The notes under the pieces are model-generated. The model was given only the letters and a program-made list of their open reading frames with translations. It was not told the DNA's origin and searched no databases. From NCBI GenBank assembly GCA_035703895.1, contig DASSXJ010000033.1, positions 1-41,258 on the forward strand: a DNA stretch of 41,258 nt, in the 5' to 3' direction. Positions 1,358 to 29,649 of this stretch are shown here, in pieces (position 1 is the first letter of the stretch; each line of letters begins with the position of its first letter). This DNA comes from a bacterium. Its GTDB lineage: Bacteria; Sysuimicrobiota; Sysuimicrobiia; Sysuimicrobiales; Segetimicrobiaceae. The translations under genes and the position numbers were made by a program.

Positions 1358-3241
1358 TCACCAGCCTCTCACAAGCGTAGTATTGCTGTGGGACGGCACC
1401 GCCTCTGCGCTTCCAGCATACCTCATGTCGCCGGCCAGCGCCAGCGTGGGGAAGAGATGCCGGTAGAGATGGTAGTTAATATAGAAGTCGCGCGGGAACC
1501 CCGTGCCCGTGTACTCGGCCTCATCCCAGGTGCCCTTCGTTTGGCTGTGGCGGAGAAACGCGACGCCGCGCCGGCAGGCCGGATGCCCGCCGAGCCCCGC
1601 CAGTTGGAGCGACACCACCGCCCAAGCGGTCGGGGACGGCGAGCTGCGGCCGACTCCCGCAAACGACGCGTCGTTGTACGAATAACAGGTCTCCCCCCAT
1701 CCGCCGTCCGGGTTTTGCACGGCGAGCAGCCATTGCGCCGCCCGGTCGATCATGGACCGGCCGGTCCCCAGCGCCGCGAGCGCGGAGACCACGCACCACG
1801 TCCCGTAGATGTAGTTGACCCCCCAGCGGCCGAACCACGATCCGGCGGGGGTCTGGGTGCGGCGCAAATACTCCAGGCCTCCGGCGACGTGCGGATCGCG
1901 CTCGTCGGCGCCGAGGAGCGCCTCCATCTCGAGCACGTGCGCCGTCACGTCTTCGGAGGGCGGGTCGAGGACCGCCCCAAAATCGCAGAACGGCAGCTTC
2001 TTGATGATCTCGCGTGTGTTGTCGCGGTCGAACGCGCCCCAGGCGCCGTTCCGAGAGCGCATCGCCAGAACCCACCGGCGGGCGCGTTCCACAGCATCGC
2101 GGGCCTCCTCGCCGGCCCCGCACTCGAGCAGGCCGACCACGACGACGGCCGTGTCGTCGATGTCGGGGTAGAGATCGTTGTCGAACTCGAACGCCCAGCC
2201 ACCGCACGGGACGTCCGGGCACCGCACACACCAGTCGCCGGGCCCAGTAATTTGCTCGTTCAGAATCCACCGCACCGCCCGCCGGACCGATGGGTGCTCC
2301 GCGCGGATCCCGGCGGCGGCAAGGGCGCGGAGCGCCCACGCCGCATCCCAGACCGGCGACATGCACGCTTGGAACCGCCACCCGGACTCGTCCTCGAGCG
2401 AGAACCGGCGCATCCCCTCGAGGCCTTTGCGCATCACGGGATGATCCGTGCCCAAGCCCTCGAGGTTGAGCGCGATCAGCGAGTACACCCACGGCGGCTG
2501 GATCCCACCCCAGCTGCCGTCCGCTTCCTGATGCTCCTCAACCCAGGTGACGAGGCGGCGGCGCGCGGCGTTGCGCCCGGGCTTCACAGGCGAACTCTCG
2601 TAGAGCTTGAGGAGCTTGTCCAACCACCAGAACGGGCCGGCACCCGGCACGCGGGCGAGGGTGGGCTCGGTTCCCTCCAGCACGATCTCGGGAAGATCGA
2701 CCCCGAGCGGGCGCACGGGCCGTCGTGACAGCACGATGGTGAGGGGGCCGATCGTCCCCCGGGCCCAGCACGCGAAGTCATACAAGTTGAAGGGGACGGA
2801 CGGCGGCAGGTAGACCATCTCCGGAGGGACGGTCGGGATTCCCCGCCAGGGATACTGACCGAAGAGCGCGAGCCAGATCTTGGTGAACACGCGCGCGCGG
2901 GCCACGCCTCCGAGCGCGCGGATCATCGTCAGGGCCTTGCGCATGGGGGCGGCGGCCGGGTCCACCCCGAGGACTTTGAGGGCCGCATACGCCTCGATCG
3001 TCGTGCTCAGGTCCGCCGGGGCTTCGTAGTACAGCGCCCACGATCCGTCCTCGCGCTGCGCGCGCAGGATGTGGCGGATGGCGCCCTCGCGGATCGGCTC
3101 GAGATCGATGCCGAGGAACCGGCAGAGGAGCACGTGCTCCGCCGTCATGGTGACGTTGGTCTCCAGCTCTCCCACCCACCATCCGTCGGGATGCTGGTGG
3201 TCGAGCAGCCAGCCGACCGCGGCGGTCAATGCGCCGTCCAC
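1358..3241 (-). CDS. shc: Squalene-hopene cyclase
   Basis: Class II terpene cyclase that folds squalene into hopene or hopanol at the membrane. The protonating motif DIDDTA is at residues 360-365 from the chosen start. QW repeats run through the protein (QREDGSW, QEADGSW, QTPAGSW, QNPDGGW). The open frame extends to 3358, but that would overlap hpnE by about 130 nt. GTG at 3241 has AGGGAG 5 nt upstream, overlaps the hpnE stop by only 16 nt, and starts right before the first conserved helix (AVGWLLDHQHPDGWW), so I take it as the start (627 residues, normal for the family). The upstream genes make squalene, which fixes the substrate. Confidence 0.96.
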   Translation of the reverse strand: MDGALTAAVGWLLDHQHPDGWWVGELETNVTMTAEHVLLCRFLGIDLEPIREGAIRHILRAQREDGSWALYYEAPADLSTTIEAYAALKVLGVDPAAAPMRKALTMIRALGGVARARVFTKIWLALFGQYPWRGIPTVPPEMVYLPPSVPFNLYDFACWARGTIGPLTIVLSRRPVRPLGVDLPEIVLEGTEPTLARVPGAGPFWWLDKLLKLYESSPVKPGRNAARRRLVTWVEEHQEADGSWGGIQPPWVYSLIALNLEGLGTDHPVMRKGLEGMRRFSLEDESGWRFQACMSPVWDAAWALRALAAAGIRAEHPSVRRAVRWILNEQITGPGDWCVRCPDVPCGGWAFEFDNDLYPDIDDTAVVVVGLLECGAGEEARDAVERARRWVLAMRSRNGAWGAFDRDNTREIIKKLPFCDFGAVLDPPSEDVTAHVLEMEALLGADERDPHVAGGLEYLRRTQTPAGSWFGRWGVNYIYGTWCVVSALAALGTGRSMIDRAAQWLLAVQNPDGGWGETCYSYNDASFAGVGRSSPSPTAWAVVSLQLAGLGGHPACRRGVAFLRHSQTKGTWDEAEYTGTGFPRDFYINYHLYRHLFPTLALAGDMRYAGSAEAVPSHSNTTLVRGW

Positions 3242-4518
3242 GCCGTCTCCCTGAGCCCGTCGAGCACATGCTGCGCCGCGGCCCGCCCGCTGCGGACCGC
3301 CGATTCGAGCGTGTCCGGCCACCCCGTGGACGTCCAGGAGCCGGCAAGCGCCAAACACGGGATCGCCGTCCCTGGACCTGGGCGCGCCACGCCCGGCTTA
3401 GCGATGAATGTCCCCTCCGGGCTCCGGGTCGCGCCGCCGTGCAGCACGCGCGCCTCCGCGAGCGCGGGAATCGCGCTTCGGATCTCCTGCCAGCAGAACG
3501 CGACGAGGTCGGCCGTCGGTTGCTGGACGTGGTCGTCGGCCGCGCTCAGACTGCAGCACAGGTACCCAGGGGCTTTTTCAAAGACCCATTGGACGGGGGA
3601 GTCCAGCAGCGCGGCGAGATCGAACCCGAGATGGCCCCGATCGTGCCACAGGTGGACGTCGACGATGGGGCGGGCTTCGTAGCCCTCCAGCGGAGGGATC
3701 CCGTACCGCGCCGGCGTCCCCAGCAGGCTCGCCAACTGCGGCGGCGCAACGGCCACCACCACGGCGTCGACCGTGACGCAGTCGCCGCCCCCCAGCCGTA
3801 CGACCGCCCGGCCGTTGGGCGGGAAGTCGAGGCCGACCACCGGCGTGGAGAGGTGCACCCGATCGAGCCGCTCGGCCGCGGCAGCGGCGAGGTGGGCGAG
3901 TGGGACCGTAAAGTATCCAAGGCGGGCCGCCCCAGGGTCCTGAAGAAACGCCGTGCGAAGGACGAACCCCGCATCTTCGGCGCTCATGCGATCCAAGGGA
4001 GCGTTGAGCGCAGGAACGAAGAACGGGCGCCAGAACCCCCGCAGCGCCTCCTCACCCTGGCCGAGGTGCGCCAGCCACTCGGCAAACGTCCCGCCGGAGT
4101 GTCCGGCCTCCCGCGCATGGACCAACGCCCGCGCCACGTCGAGCTTGGCCGCCCACCCGAGGTGACGGTATCCGAGGAAGGAGGACACGAGGTGCCAGGG
4201 CGCCGGCAGGCCTGCCGACCGGAGCCGGCTTGCTTCACCGTCCCGCGACAGGACGAGGACCTCGAACCTGTCCTGGAGGTGGAGATGCCGCTCCATGCCA
4301 ACCCTGCGGGCGAACTCGATAAACTCGGAGTAGCAGGCGAGGAAGACGTGCTGGCCGTTATCGACCTCGTGCCCGTTGATCCGGAACGACGTGGCCCTCC
4401 CGCCAAGAATGCGGCTTCGCTCGAAGAGCTCGACCTCGCACCCCGTCTGCTTGAGCTCGACTCCGGCTGCGAGGCCGGCGATCCCTGCGCCGACGATCCC
4501 TACGCGGTGCTGAGCCAT
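3226..4518 (-). CDS. hpnE: Hydroxysqualene/squalene-forming FAD amine oxidoreductase HpnE
   Basis: 430 residues from the ATG at 4518. The N-terminus carries the dinucleotide-binding motif VGIVGAGIAGLAAG (residues 6-19) ending in ELFER, and the C-terminus has the FAD-contacting segment CLALAGSWTSTGWPDTLE. This is the phytoene-desaturase-like amine oxidoreductase group to which HpnE belongs. HpnE reduces hydroxysqualene to squalene in the HpnCDE route. The frame is open further upstream (to 4644), but that part is the antisense-biased tail of hpnD; the ATG overlaps the hpnD stop by 19 nt. It sits between hpnD and shc, as in other hopanoid operons. Confidence 0.93.
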   Translation of the reverse strand: MAQHRVGIVGAGIAGLAAGVELKQTGCEVELFERSRILGGRATSFRINGHEVDNGQHVFLACYSEFIEFARRVGMERHLHLQDRFEVLVLSRDGEASRLRSAGLPAPWHLVSSFLGYRHLGWAAKLDVARALVHAREAGHSGGTFAEWLAHLGQGEEALRGFWRPFFVPALNAPLDRMSAEDAGFVLRTAFLQDPGAARLGYFTVPLAHLAAAAAERLDRVHLSTPVVGLDFPPNGRAVVRLGGGDCVTVDAVVVAVAPPQLASLLGTPARYGIPPLEGYEARPIVDVHLWHDRGHLGFDLAALLDSPVQWVFEKAPGYLCCSLSAADDHVQQPTADLVAFCWQEIRSAIPALAEARVLHGGATRSPEGTFIAKPGVARPGPGTAIPCLALAGSWTSTGWPDTLESAVRSGRAAAQHVLDGLRETAWTAH

Positions 4519-5390
4519 GATTCCAGCGCGACGCGGAGTTTTTCCGCCTTGGACAGCGATGCGCGCTGGCGGAGGGGAAGCTCGGGATCCCGGTCGATGC
4601 GGTTGAGGATCCGCTGGTAGATCCCCGCCATCGTCCGGACGCACACCGCAGGACGGCGCGGGATGAAGGTCGCGACCCCGAGCCCCGATGCGAACAACGC
4701 GCGCGCCCGCTGCGCCTCAAACGCTACGAGCGGCTTCCACCCGACGCCGGGACGGCCGTCCAGCACCTCCTGCTCCGTCACGCCGAACCTCTGGAGGTCT
4801 TCCTGGGGGAGGTAGATGCGTCCCATCTCGGCGTCCTCGCGGACGTCGCGGAGGCAGTTGGTCAGCTGCATGGCCAGCCCCAGCTCGTCGGCCCGATCGA
4901 AGACCGTCGCATCCGTATACCCGAAGATCCGCACGCACATCCTGCCCACCACGGACGCAACCAGCCGGCAGTACTCCTGCAGCGCGTCCCACGAGGGGTA
5001 CCGCGTTCGATGATAGTCCATCTCCACACCGTCGATAAGGGCGAGCAGCTCGGCTTCGGGAATGGAGAAGCGGTCCACCGCATGGGCCAGGACCTGCATC
5101 ACCGGGTCGGAATACTCGCCGCGCACACACCGGCGCACGCGCTCGCGATGCACCTCGAGACGCTCAGGCAGACGCTCGGGGCCCACCCCATCGGCCTCGT
5201 CGTCGACCTGGCGGGAAAAGCCGTAGAGGGCATAGATTGCCACGCGCTGTTCCCTGGCGAGGGTGATGAACCCCCAGTAGAAATTGGTGGCCGCGCGGCG
5301 CACCATATGATGGCAGAAGGCCTCCGACGCTCGCAGGTCCAGCCGGCCGATCGGGCCGGCTTGTTCAAGCGGTACCGAGTCTGCGCGCAC
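4500..5390 (-). CDS. hpnD: Presqualene diphosphate synthase HpnD
   Basis: 296 residues. Squalene/phytoene synthase fold with the first Asp-rich motif RQVDDEAD and the second NCLRDVREDAEMGRIYLP. HpnD condenses two farnesyl diphosphates to presqualene diphosphate. The frame is open to 5693, but GTG at 5390 has GGAGGT exactly 5 nt upstream and overlaps the hpnC stop by 26 nt, so it is the likely start. Its position after hpnC and before hpnE matches the three-enzyme squalene route. A phytoene synthase role is less likely because no carotenoid genes are nearby. Confidence 0.94.
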   Translation of the reverse strand: MRADSVPLEQAGPIGRLDLRASEAFCHHMVRRAATNFYWGFITLAREQRVAIYALYGFSRQVDDEADGVGPERLPERLEVHRERVRRCVRGEYSDPVMQVLAHAVDRFSIPEAELLALIDGVEMDYHRTRYPSWDALQEYCRLVASVVGRMCVRIFGYTDATVFDRADELGLAMQLTNCLRDVREDAEMGRIYLPQEDLQRFGVTEQEVLDGRPGVGWKPLVAFEAQRARALFASGLGVATFIPRRPAVCVRTMAGIYQRILNRIDRDPELPLRQRASLSKAEKLRVALESWLSTA

Positions 5391-6213
5391 TGCCGACCTC
5401 CAGGATGGACTGCCGGACCGCATGCTGGAGTACGAGGAGCTTGGCCCACGGCGAGACCTGGGGGCGTCGGAGGTCCGTGCGGTACCCCAGGCGCTCGATC
5501 GCGTCGACGATCGCCAAGCCTCCAAGGCGATAGAGCGCCAGCTGAAACCGCAGCGGCCACGGCGCCAGCCCCTCCAGCTCACGCCCCGACGCCAGCAGCG
5601 TCCGCGCCCGCTCACAGAGGCCGCGCGTCGCTCCCGTGATGCCGCCCGCCTGAAGATCGGTCTGGAGCAGATATGTCCGTCCCTTTGCGGCATCGACGCT
5701 CACGTCTTGGGCGAAGTTCGCGAGCTGCAGCCCGATGCATACGTCGTCGGACAACGGCTCGGCCGCCGGGGTCCTGATCCGAAAGAGGCGGAGGACGATC
5801 CTGCCCACCGGGGCAGCCGACTTGTCGCAGTAGGCGCGCAGCTCCGGCCACGCGGCGTAGCTCGAGACGACCTGGTCTTGCAGGTTGGCCTGGATGAGAT
5901 CGAGGAACGGCTGTGCGGGAAGTTGGTAGTGCTGGACGGTGTCCCGCAGGGCTACCAAGACCGGGTGGGTCGGCCGCCCGCCGGCGAACAGCTCCACCAC
6001 CTCCTCCCGCCAGCGCTCGAGATGCACGCGGGCCTCAACGCCGTGTTCGTCCCCGAGGTCGTCGGTGCTGCGGCAGTACGCGTACACCCGCGCCAGGTCG
6101 CGCCGCAGGCCGCGCCGGAGAAGCCGGGACGCCACCGTGAAGTTCTCGTAATGCCGGCAGGCGAGGCGCCAGCAGTATGCGTCGGCGGCCGCGACGTCGA
6201 GCGGCCTCGTCAT
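5365..6213 (-). CDS. hpnC: Hydroxysqualene synthase HpnC
   Basis: 282 residues of the squalene/phytoene synthase family. The first Asp motif is CRSTDDLGDE; the second site reads ANFAQDVSVDAAKGRTYL, the variant form seen in HpnC. HpnC turns presqualene diphosphate into hydroxysqualene. The ATG at 6213 overlaps the stop of the preceding fusion gene as ATGA, a strong sign of coupled translation. hpnC and hpnD are paralogues in tandem; the differing second motif and gene order separate their roles. Confidence 0.93.
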   Translation of the reverse strand: MTRPLDVAAADAYCWRLACRHYENFTVASRLLRRGLRRDLARVYAYCRSTDDLGDEHGVEARVHLERWREEVVELFAGGRPTHPVLVALRDTVQHYQLPAQPFLDLIQANLQDQVVSSYAAWPELRAYCDKSAAPVGRIVLRLFRIRTPAAEPLSDDVCIGLQLANFAQDVSVDAAKGRTYLLQTDLQAGGITGATRGLCERARTLLASGRELEGLAPWPLRFQLALYRLGGLAIVDAIERLGYRTDLRRPQVSPWAKLLVLQHAVRQSILEVGSARRLGTA

Positions 6214-7748
6214 CGACCCAGGACCTGCACCATCACGCGGCGTTCCCTGGCCGTGCACAGCTCGATCAGGAAGATCCGTTGCCACCGCCCCAATTCGAGT
6301 CGTCCATCTAAGATCGGCACCATCTCGCTGGTGGACAGCAGCAGGTGCCGGCAGTGGGCGTGGCCGTTCATCGGCTCGTCCGGCGGCACGTCGGGACGCC
6401 GGGGGAGGTCGTCGTGCTCGTACGCGCCGTCCCCGGCTGGGGCGAGCCGATCGAGGAAGCGCCGGAAGTCTTGCAGGAGGAGCCGTTCGTTTTCGTTCAT
6501 GCGAATCGCCGCGGTGGTGTGCATCGCATAGACGTGCGCGAGGCCCCGCCGTACGCCGGACGACCGCACGACGGCGGACACGTCATCCGTGATGTCGAGA
6601 AATTGCCCCGCCCCTTCGGTGCGGTAGCTGAGCTCCGCGATATGGGGCTCATCCCGGTCCGCATCCCGCCGGCGGAGCCGGGGCGTGAATCGCAGATCGG
6701 CGAGCGTGCGCGCGCCGAGGCTGAACATGGCAATGCGCAAGGTCTCGATCAGCTCGCGGCCAAGATCGAGCGCCGCCTCCTCACCCTCCGCCGCGGTGCG
6801 CAGGAAGGGGCCGGCGATGCCGACCAGGTCCGCGCCGAGCGCCACTGCCTTGGCGATATCGATGCCGTTGCGGATCCCCCCGCTCGCGAAGAGGGAGGCC
6901 TCGGGGGCGGCCTGCCTGGCCTGCCGCAGGCATTCGGCGGTGGGGATCCCCCATCCGGCGAACGCGGCGGCGACGCGGGCGCGCCAGGGCTCGGTGATCC
7001 GGCGCCGCTCCACCTCGCTCCACGACGTGCCTCCCGCGCCCGCGACGTCCACCGCGGCGACGCCCGCGTCGAGGAGGAGCCGCACCGCGTCCGGCGCGAT
7101 GCCCCAGCCGACTTCTTTGGCGACGACCGGCACTTCGAGGCGCCGGCAGAGTTCGCCGATCTTGCCGAGCAGGCCCGCGAAACATGTGTCGCCTTCCGGT
7201 TGCACGGCTTCCTGCAGGGCGTTGAGGTGCAAGACCAGGGCGTCCGCACCGAGCGCGTCGACGAGCCTGCGGCAGTGATCCACCCCGTAGCCCTTGTTGA
7301 GCTGGACCGCGCCGAGGTTGGCGAAGAGCAGCACATCCGGCGCGACACGGCGGACGTCGAAGGTTCGAAGCACGTCGGGATCCTCGAGCAAAATCCGCCC
7401 GGATCCGAGCCCCATCGCCACGCCCAAGCGCTGGGCGACCTGCGCGAGGACGCGGTTGATAGATGCGGCCTCGTCTGTGCCACCGACCATGCAGGAGATC
7501 AGCAACGGCGCCGAGAGCCGGCGGCCGAACAACTCTGTCGACGAGTCCACCCGATCCAAGTTGAGCTCTGGGAGCGCGCAATGCAGAAACTCGTAGTCGT
7601 CGAAGCCGCTGGCGATGCCCTTGGCCGCGACGTCTTCTTCCAGGTTGATCCGGACATGATCCGCCTTCCGTGATGCGACGCCACTGGGAGAGCAGGTTGC
7701 AAACTGACCGTCCCCATCAGTCCGTTTACCGAGATCTGCTCGCCTCAT
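6210..7748 (-). CDS. fni: Fusion: type II isopentenyl-diphosphate isomerase (Fni/Idi2) + YjbQ/UPF0047 domain
   Basis: 512 residues in one uninterrupted frame. Residues 1 to about 360 are a type II, FMN-dependent IPP isomerase: SRKADHVRI near the N-terminus, LLISCMVGGT, the substrate loop HLNALQEAVQPEGD with the catalytic-type Gln and metal Glu, and GAGGTSW. Residues about 369-512 are a complete YjbQ (UPF0047) domain: HTTAAIRMNENE, then GHAHCRHLLLSTSEMVPI and LELGRWQRIFLIELC. Fni interconverts IPP and DMAPP; YjbQ proteins have been linked to weak thiamine-phosphate synthase activity but their true role is unclear. I start at ATG 7748, which has GGGGGTGA 8 nt upstream; GTG at 7760 is the alternative. 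It is the first gene of the hopanoid operon and feeds farnesyl diphosphate synthesis for HpnCDE. Confidence 0.92.
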   Translation of the reverse strand: MRRADLGKRTDGDGQFATCSPSGVASRKADHVRINLEEDVAAKGIASGFDDYEFLHCALPELNLDRVDSSTELFGRRLSAPLLISCMVGGTDEAASINRVLAQVAQRLGVAMGLGSGRILLEDPDVLRTFDVRRVAPDVLLFANLGAVQLNKGYGVDHCRRLVDALGADALVLHLNALQEAVQPEGDTCFAGLLGKIGELCRRLEVPVVAKEVGWGIAPDAVRLLLDAGVAAVDVAGAGGTSWSEVERRRITEPWRARVAAAFAGWGIPTAECLRQARQAAPEASLFASGGIRNGIDIAKAVALGADLVGIAGPFLRTAAEGEEAALDLGRELIETLRIAMFSLGARTLADLRFTPRLRRRDADRDEPHIAELSYRTEGAGQFLDITDDVSAVVRSSGVRRGLAHVYAMHTTAAIRMNENERLLLQDFRRFLDRLAPAGDGAYEHDDLPRRPDVPPDEPMNGHAHCRHLLLSTSEMVPILDGRLELGRWQRIFLIELCTARERRVMVQVLGR

Positions 7749-7812
7749 AGCGTAAGTCACCCCCGAGGTCCGTCTTTACATCCAGAAATCGAAACGACGG
7801 GCGATTCTTTCG

Positions 7813-27679: not shown

Positions 27680-27700
27680 GGCGGGTTGGAGGCGCAGCGC

Positions 27701-28675
27701 GTGAAGACGACGGTTGTAGGAAGCTATCCGAAGATTCCTGATCCCCCGGCTCCGGGGCGGTGGCGCACAAGCGTCGAGAAGCTCCAGCGGGGCGAGATCA
27801 CCGCGGAGGACATGCGCCGCGTGGAGGAAGAGGTCACGGCGGAAGTGCTCGCGGAGATGGATCGCGCGGGGATCGACATCGTGACGGACGGGCAGATTCG
27901 GTGGGAGGACGGGCAGACCTATTTCACACGCGGCCTCGCGGGGTTCTCGATCAACGGCCTGCAGCGGTACTTTGACACGAACGTGTATTTCCGGCAGCCC
28001 ATCGCGATCGGGGAGACCGCGTGGCGCGCGCCCATCAGCGTCGCCGATTACACGTTTGCCGCGGCCCGCAGCCAGCGGCCGGTCAAGCCGGTCGTGAGCG
28101 GCCCGTTCACCCTGGCCGTCCTGAGCCGGGATGAGTTCTACGGGAACCAGGACCAGTTCGTCATGGCCCTGGCTTCTTCTCTCAACCAGGAACTCCGGGC
28201 ACTGGCCGCCGCCGGCGCGCCGGTGATTCAGGTGGACGAGCCCGGCCTGCTGACTCATCGCGACCGATTTCCTCTCTTCCGGCGCGCCATGGACGTGTTG
28301 TGGGACGGGGTGACCGCGGAGCGGGCGCTGTATACTTATTTCGGGCCCGTGGACGGTTTGTACCCGGCGATCCTCGACCTCCCGGTCGATATCCTCGGTC
28401 TCGACTTCGTCGCTGGCGCCCAAAACTGGGACGTGCTGCGGAAGGCGAAGTTCACCAAGCAGCTGGGCCTCGGCATCGTGGATGCGCGGAACACCAAGAT
28501 GGAGACGCCCGAGGCGGTCGCCGACGCATGCCGCCGGGCCGCCGAGATCGTCCCAGCGGACCACCTGCACGTGGGGCCGAGCGCGGGGCTCGAGTTCCTG
28601 CCGCGAAAAGTGGCCCAACGGAAGCTAGAGGTCCTGGCGGCGGGCGCCCGCCGGTTCCGGGAGGGAGCCGCATGA
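27701..28675 (+). CDS. MetE N-terminal-domain-like protein (zinc-less barrel)
   Basis: 324 residues. A MetE/UROD-type barrel (TTVVGSYPK, AGIDIVTDGQIRWED, VIQVDEPGLLT), but at the place where catalytic MetE barrels have HxC it reads YTYFG (211-215), and the last zinc Cys is replaced in VGPSAGLEFLP (from 291). TYFG, LPVDILGLDF, LGIVDARN and GPSAGL resemble the N-terminal, non-zinc half of full-length cobalamin-independent methionine synthase. That half helps bind the methyl-folate. GTG at 27701 has GGAGG 8 nt upstream; the stop overlaps the next gene as ATGA. Together the two genes look like MetE split in two. Alternative: an unrelated methyltransferase-like pair. Confidence 0.8.
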   Translation: MKTTVVGSYPKIPDPPAPGRWRTSVEKLQRGEITAEDMRRVEEEVTAEVLAEMDRAGIDIVTDGQIRWEDGQTYFTRGLAGFSINGLQRYFDTNVYFRQPIAIGETAWRAPISVADYTFAAARSQRPVKPVVSGPFTLAVLSRDEFYGNQDQFVMALASSLNQELRALAAAGAPVIQVDEPGLLTHRDRFPLFRRAMDVLWDGVTAERALYTYFGPVDGLYPAILDLPVDILGLDFVAGAQNWDVLRKAKFTKQLGLGIVDARNTKMETPEAVADACRRAAEIVPADHLHVGPSAGLEFLPRKVAQRKLEVLAAGARRFREGAA

Positions 28676-29649
28676 CGGAGCAGATCCTACTCACCACGAC
28701 GGTAGGCAGTTTCCCCAAACCGCCCTATCTAGTAGAAGCCCGGCGGAAGCACGCGCGCAAGCAGATCGATGCGGGAGAGTTTCGGGACCTCGAGCGGCGG
28801 GCCACGGAGGAGTGGATCCGGCGCCAGGAGGAGATCGGGGTCGACATCCTCGTGGACGGCGAGATGTACCGCGGGGACATGGTGGCCTACTTTGCGGACC
28901 AGATGGACGGGTTCGCCATCCCCGGGATCGTGCGGTCGTATGGGAATCGATACTACCCGAAGCCCGCGGTCGTGGCGCCGGTCGGGCGGCGCGGGCCCAT
29001 CACCGTGGAGTGGTGGTCGTACTCGCAGAGCCTGACCTCCCGGCCGGTGAAGGGGATGCTGACCGGGCCGTACACGATCGCCGAGTGGTCGTTCAACGAG
29101 CATTACCCCACCCGCCGCGAACTGGTGCTCGAACTCGCCCGCGCGATCCACGATGAGGCCGTCGACCTCGAACGCGCGGGGGCTCGGTACATCCAGATCG
29201 ACGAACCCGCCATTCACACCAGGCCGGATGCGGACTTCGACCTGGCCGTCGAAGCCATGGAGATCGTCACGAAGGGGCTGAAGGCGTATACGATCTCACA
29301 CGTCTGCTATGGGGATGTCCCCCGCATCTACCCGGCGATGCTGCGCCTCGCAGTGGACCAGCTGGACCTCGCGCTCAAGAACGAGGAGTACGCGCTGCTG
29401 GACACGTTCAAGTCTCCGAAGTTCACCAAGGACATCGGGCTCGGCGTCCTCGACGCGCACAGTCATCGCACGGAGACGCCTGAAGAGGTCGTGGACGGAA
29501 TCCGCCGGACGCTCAAGGTGATCCCGCTGCCTCAAGTCTACGTGACGCCGGACTGCGGCCTCAAGACCAGGACGATCGATGAGACCGTCGCGAAACTCAC
29601 CTCCATGGTGGAAGGCGCCCGGCGCGTTCGGGAGGAGCTGGCCCGATAG
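28672..29649 (+). CDS. MetE C-terminal-domain-like methyltransferase (zinc barrel)
   Basis: 325 residues. Catalytic-type MetE barrel: LTTTVGSFPKP, GVDILVDGEMYRGDM, YIQIDEPAIHTR, the zinc ligands His210 and Cys212 (SHVCYGD) and Cys295 (TPDCGLKTR). In known enzymes the zinc holds homocysteine, which takes a methyl group to give methionine. The Glu that normally follows (about LDLE) appears as LDLALKNEE, so Ala234 may replace it; Glu238 or Glu239 could stand in. ATG at 28672 has GAGGGAG 4 nt upstream and overlaps the previous stop. Core-MetE enzymes can use donors other than methyl-folate, so the donor is open. Confidence 0.85.
   Translation: MTEQILLTTTVGSFPKPPYLVEARRKHARKQIDAGEFRDLERRATEEWIRRQEEIGVDILVDGEMYRGDMVAYFADQMDGFAIPGIVRSYGNRYYPKPAVVAPVGRRGPITVEWWSYSQSLTSRPVKGMLTGPYTIAEWSFNEHYPTRRELVLELARAIHDEAVDLERAGARYIQIDEPAIHTRPDADFDLAVEAMEIVTKGLKAYTISHVCYGDVPRIYPAMLRLAVDQLDLALKNEEYALLDTFKSPKFTKDIGLGVLDAHSHRTETPEEVVDGIRRTLKVIPLPQVYVTPDCGLKTRTIDETVAKLTSMVEGARRVREELAR

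Follow-up and report, generated by a model that had tools for sequence, protein, structure and literature searches.

The question raised by this locus is whether two overlapping genes of an uncultured bacterium encode the two halves of a cobalamin-independent methionine synthase (MetE), as proposed in an earlier note on this DNA, and which zinc site and methyl donor such an enzyme would use. The stretch that was analyzed (hereafter, the window; 41,258 nucleotides) is one contig of a 4.38 Mb Ca. Sysuimicrobiota MAG that is 97% complete. We favor, with a probability of roughly 0.82, the interpretation that the pair is a two-subunit (split) MetE which transfers a methyl group from methyl-tetrahydrofolate to homocysteine at a remodelled zinc site. 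The split form as such is already known, and the pair belongs to the split MetE of Price et al. (2021; PMC7857596), which has been described mainly from archaea (Pyrococcus furiosus PF1268/PF1269, Halobacteria and Thermoprotei) and also from Sulfobacillus. What is new here is a conserved alteration at the catalytic zinc site, which the earlier note overlooked.

Organization of the two-gene locus

ORF1 (27701..28675, plus strand) starts with GTG and encodes a protein of 324 aa (P1), the MetE N-domain-like subunit without a zinc site, and ORF2 (28672..29649, plus strand) starts with ATG and encodes the catalytic subunit (P2). The two genes lie in different frames, both open across these spans, and the start of ORF2 overlaps the stop of ORF1 as ATGA (28672..28675, plus strand), as the earlier note had described; the same -4 overlap is found in most relatives. 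Each gene is preceded on the plus strand by a purine-rich, probable ribosome-binding site, namely GGAGG at 27688..27692 for ORF1, which supports the GTG start at 27701, and GGGAGGG at 28659..28665, inside ORF1, for ORF2. The two genes are probably translationally coupled, and such coupling may yield the subunits in equal amounts. The gene for an acyl-CoA dehydrogenase ends 21 bases upstream of ORF1, and its relatives precede the pair in 17 of 80 named loci. Elsewhere in the window (1358-7760, minus strand), ORFs were noted by eye that resemble squalene-hopene cyclase, squalene/hopanoid synthesis genes and type 2 isopentenyl-diphosphate isomerase.

The zinc-less subunit

The best NCBIfam model for both ORF1 and ORF2 is the methionine synthase model PRK04326. 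Among the Pfam domains, ORF1 matches PF01717 (126 bits) better than PF08267, the MetE N-domain (91 bits). Under the screening rule of 2021, an N subunit had to score higher with the N-domain model than with the catalytic one (PMC7857596), so that ORF1-type pairs would be passed over by that screen. In having a PF08267 score below that of PF01717, ORF1 is similar to AMET1_0515 of Price et al. (PMC7857596).

The position of ORF1 is settled by a tree of barrel halves (a quick tree with SH-aLRT support values), in which ORF1 and its relatives, the haloarchaeal N subunits and the N halves of three fused MetE proteins form one side (SH-aLRT 99), and the other side comprises ORF2 and its relatives, the haloarchaeal catalytic subunits, the C halves of the three MetE proteins and two single-barrel paralogues. 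In PDB, the predicted fold of ORF1 (mean pLDDT 81) has its top matches in MetE and the single-barrel methionine synthase 3rpd, with UROD far behind. Together, the tree and the fold search rule out the assignment of ORF1 to another UROD-type family, the outcome that the earlier note had named as fatal to its proposal, and its view of ORF1 as the N-terminal half of MetE stands, given that the motifs it named and the PF08267 match are present as well. Pejchal and Ludwig (PMC539065) showed that MetE originated from the duplication of a zinc barrel and that its N barrel has since been deprived of the zinc site, and the losses in ORF1, when aligned with Escherichia coli MetE, are of the same kind. 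In ORF1, Gln88-Arg89 (27962..27967, plus strand) include an Arg that aligns with the conserved Lys of MetE N-domains (KWFxTN) and a Gln that is typical of the lineage with the altered zinc site described below; in a search among the relatives in that lineage for changes in ORF1 that could compensate for the lost zinc ligand, only Gln88 stood out.

The catalytic subunit

ORF2, a protein of 325 aa, matches PF01717 with 279 bits and the C-domains of MetE in PDB with an E-value of 1.8e-65. For comparison, PF1269-type catalytic components of split MetE have an upper length of 400 aa. The score of ORF2 with the archaeal-type model PRK04326 is 404 bits against a cut-off of 406, and with the fused MetE model TIGR01371 it is 300 bits against a cut-off of 930. 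Thus, the pair falls outside fused MetE, a single chain of about 750 aa, with which it nevertheless shares the two barrels, the homocysteine-binding residues, the His and two Cys zinc ligands, the pterin-stacking Trp and the DMV turn; unlike fused MetE, it consists of two proteins and lacks the linker, the six-residue beta4-alpha4 extension and the Glu at the E665 position.

At the level of individual residues, the homocysteine-binding Ser433, Glu484 and Asp599 of E. coli MetE are retained in ORF2 as S13, E64 and D177. The HxC motif and the later Cys reported in the earlier note are readily aligned with the E. coli zinc ligands: His210 and Cys212 (29299..29307, plus strand) correspond to H641 and C643, also in the alignment with Thermotoga maritima MetE, and Cys295 (29554..29556, plus strand) corresponds to C726. 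On the donor side, Trp139 (29086..29088, plus strand) is the counterpart of the pterin-stacking Trp539 of T. maritima MetE (role from PMC539065), and the DMV turn is also kept; the position of the pterin-binding Glu583 is occupied by Thr183, and this Glu is absent from the relatives as well.

Phyletic distribution

Within the phylum, ORF1 is matched in 36 of 43 genomes, mostly with the pair side by side; genome G041 carries the relatives of ORF1 and ORF2 on different contigs, family f2 has a more distant pair, which is missing altogether from the four genomes of one f2 genus. Relatives of ORF1 were found in 504 stretches among 84,980 genomes, mostly of uncultured bacteria, and the best 80 of these 504 loci belong to Sysuimicrobiota, Chloroflexota, Omnitrophota, Zixibacteria and further groups, most of them uncultured. 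In about 72 of these best 80 loci, ORF1 is followed by ORF2, most of the others being contig ends; in the paired loci, ORF2 invariably comes second, commonly with the -4 overlap. Conservation on this scale greatly exceeds what chance would give. No fusion of ORF1 and ORF2 was detected among the loci examined. One contig titled Nanoarchaeota (L062) carries a bacterial-like split MetE with an MTHFR fusion gene and is possibly mis-binned.

The statement of the earlier note that split forms are known mostly from archaea agrees with Price et al. (2021) but understates the range, given that the ORF1 family is widespread in uncultured bacteria. Like the archaeal split MetE, the window pair consists of two adjacent single-barrel genes, usually in a genome that has no other methionine synthase, and its gene order and overlap are the same as in haloarchaeal plasmid pairs. 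Unlike the archaeal forms, it belongs to a bacterial phylum and has Ala where they have the zinc-binding Glu, along with several linked changes. With its separate N-type component, its components adjacent across lineages (apart from G041) and the lack of another MetE or MetH in the genome, the pair conforms to the split-MetE reading, which the domain matches and the tree of halves also bear out.

An altered zinc site

Zinc in MetE has four protein ligands (His, Cys, Glu and Cys), which is unusual; homocysteine comes in from the face opposite the Glu, and upon its binding the zinc shifts away from that residue (PMC539065). The earlier note implied that this site is intact in ORF2, which is correct for His210, Cys212 and Cys295 but not for the fourth ligand: the residue that corresponds to E. 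coli E665 and T. maritima E642 is Ala234 (GCG, 29371..29373, plus strand), so that ORF2 departs from the MetE-type His-Cys-Glu-Cys pattern. Among 78 full catalytic subunits, His-Cys-Ala-Cys is found in 30 and His-Cys-Glu-Cys in 46, and the first Cys is replaced by Ala in two (both from Chloroflexota, L075 and L089, with His-Ala-Glu-Cys). With one added locus, the Ala-type set comprises 31 proteins, 24 from Sysuimicrobiota and 7 from Chloroflexota. The zinc Glu is kept in two f2-family genomes of the same phylum (G002 and G001; loci L117 and L118), which carry a second, distant type of split MetE.

Three further features separate the Ala-type proteins from the 46 bacterial Glu-type proteins, in a comparison of groups that were chosen after the pattern had been seen and in which the number of sequences does not equal the number of independent events: His182 (29215..29217, plus strand), a one-residue insertion represented by Asp188 (29233..29235, plus strand) and Val216 (29317..29319, plus strand) are each present in 31/31 Ala-type proteins, whereas in the Glu-type proteins residue 182 is Ser, Pro or Thr, the insertion is found in none, and residue 216 is Phe in 45 and Ser in one. 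In the alignment, residue 182 is paired with Arg582 of T. maritima MetE, five residues past the homocysteine-binding Asp and adjoining the pterin-binding Glu583, and because of this location His182 could reach either the zinc or the methyl donor; it is thus a candidate for a replacement ligand or for a residue of the donor site. A structure model of ORF2, built from a shallow alignment of 15 close relatives, is poor at residues 212-264, which include the zinc site, and was set aside for zinc geometry.

Loss of the fourth ligand is also seen in the MesC-like proteins of MSBL-1, which have Gly at the Glu665 position but belong to a different family, in genomes that also have split MetE (PMC7857596). 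Price et al. (2021) expected Gly at this position to be incompatible with zinc binding (PMC7857596), and by this token the Ala of ORF2 could signify a weak or changed site. We read the Ala-type as a remodelled site that probably still works. Under this interpretation, His210, Cys212 and Cys295 would hold the zinc, which would bind homocysteine as a thiolate. The replacement by Ala234 would leave, instead of the inverting four-ligand zinc site of MetE, a site with three ligands whose fourth position is exchangeable and filled by water or His182; homocysteine might take this position directly. Trp139 and the DMV turn would receive the folate, and ORF1, as the duplicated barrel without a zinc site, would close the folate cleft in the manner of the MetE N-domain.

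Methyl donor and other routes to methionine

The family search of the window genome yielded no full-length (fused) MetE, the presence of which the earlier note considered damaging to its proposal, and also no MetH activation domain and no B12-binding cap domain; MesA-MesD, MesB included, were covered in this search only through the common domain PF01717. Two more single-barrel PF01717 proteins, with open frames of 369 and 397 aa and an intact His-Cys-Glu-Cys pattern, are encoded on other contigs (G000:C175 and C15; L120 and L121). A MetH-sized cap protein (a frame of 1117 aa) is present in a single genome of the phylum, G042, which has only a weak match to ORF1. Methylene-THF reductase (MTHFR) is found in 42 of the 43 genomes. 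In 11 of the best 80 loci, some from Sysuimicrobiota and four otherwise titled, the pair is adjoined by a gene for a homocysteine methyltransferase-MTHFR fusion, which is located beside Ala-type pairs within the phylum and beside Glu-type pairs elsewhere. The window genome encodes such a fusion (623 aa), its sole MTHFR, on another contig (G000:C320, L122:4154-6025).

The retention of the homocysteine-binding residues, the pterin Trp and the DMV turn, combined with the presence of MTHFR and its location next to the pair, suggests that the donor is probably ordinary methyl-folate, and, in view of the same observations on Trp139, the DMV turn and MTHFR, the unusual methyl donors suggested in the earlier note are not supported. 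The alternative, in which a corrinoid protein or some other non-folate donor would supply the methyl group to this methionine synthase in the manner of MesA, MesB and MesC, with ORF1 as a docking subunit, appears improbable to us. It gains from the single barrel of the catalytic subunit, from the in vitro use of methylcobalamin by core enzymes of the family (PMC7857596), from the lack of conservation of Glu583 and from the proximity of the Ala-type-linked changes to donor-binding positions. However, a non-folate donor would leave unexplained the dedicated second barrel with its MetE N-domain features and the retained folate-side residues, and it fits poorly with the adjoining MTHFR genes in several lineages and the lack of a cap domain in the window genome. 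The core synthases MesA-MesD themselves (PMC7857596) resemble ORF2 in having a single catalytic barrel of comparable size, but have no second barrel; ORF1 is conserved beside ORF2, which thus does not qualify as a core synthase. In addition, MesD requires MesX and oxygen (PMC7857596).

It is likewise improbable that the Ala-type pair has given up making methionine in favor of a different thiol or methyl donor, leaving methionine synthesis to the BHMT-like or fusion methyltransferase. Some enzymes of the zinc-barrel superfamily at large act on other thiol substrates, and a zinc ligand that MetE keeps has been lost in the Ala-type along with the linked changes. Furthermore, the window genome encodes two S-methyl_trans proteins, the methyltransferase-MTHFR fusion and a BHMT-like protein, either of which might make some methionine; for the latter, given a suitable methyl donor, a betaine route is possible. 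The BHMT-like gene (G000:C106, L123:1888-2964) lies, as judged by eye, near genes for an osmoprotectant-binding-type protein and an FAD oxidoreductase. Against a change of substrate stand the full set of homocysteine-binding residues, the lack of any other MetE or MetH in the genome and the identical arrangement with the MTHFR fusion for both Ala-type and Glu-type pairs. Decay of the catalytic subunit towards a pseudogene, which the loss of a catalytic-site residue could suggest, is highly implausible: its reading frame is intact, the protein is strongly conserved in several families of the phylum (mean column identity 85%), the other substitutions form a fixed set and the remaining ligands do not vary.

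History of the Ala-type variant

A single clade of all Ala-type proteins was rejected both for the whole protein after removal of the trait columns (AU p 0.0087) and for the part outside residues 165-245 (AU p 0.005), where the Ala-type proteins of Chloroflexota group with the Glu-type ones of that phylum (SH-aLRT 88.9). Within residues 170-245, the joint clade was not rejected (AU p 0.45). Sequence identity follows the same pattern: over residues 181-240, it amounts to 56% between the two Ala groups, compared with 40% between the Chloroflexota Ala group and its sisters, whereas over the whole protein the respective values are 54% and 61%. The likeness of the two Ala groups within this segment, but not outside it, fits either transfer of the segment or parallel change under the same constraint, so far as alignments and trees can indicate. 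We tentatively suggest, as a possibility well short of an even chance, that a large branch of the phylum uses a rebuilt zinc site in which the Glu is gone and His182 from a neighboring loop replaces it, either as a ligand or as an acid/base at the donor site, and that this segment was passed between Sysuimicrobiota and Chloroflexota or arose twice through the same changes.

Implications

With these observations, the range of split MetE, so far a mostly archaeal form, grows to include many uncultured phyla of bacteria. For annotation, the consequence is that genomes with such pairs should not be labelled methionine auxotrophs. The Ala-type site is a natural test of the role of the fourth zinc ligand in MetE, being a conserved version of the site that lacks the Glu and has a fixed set of accompanying changes.
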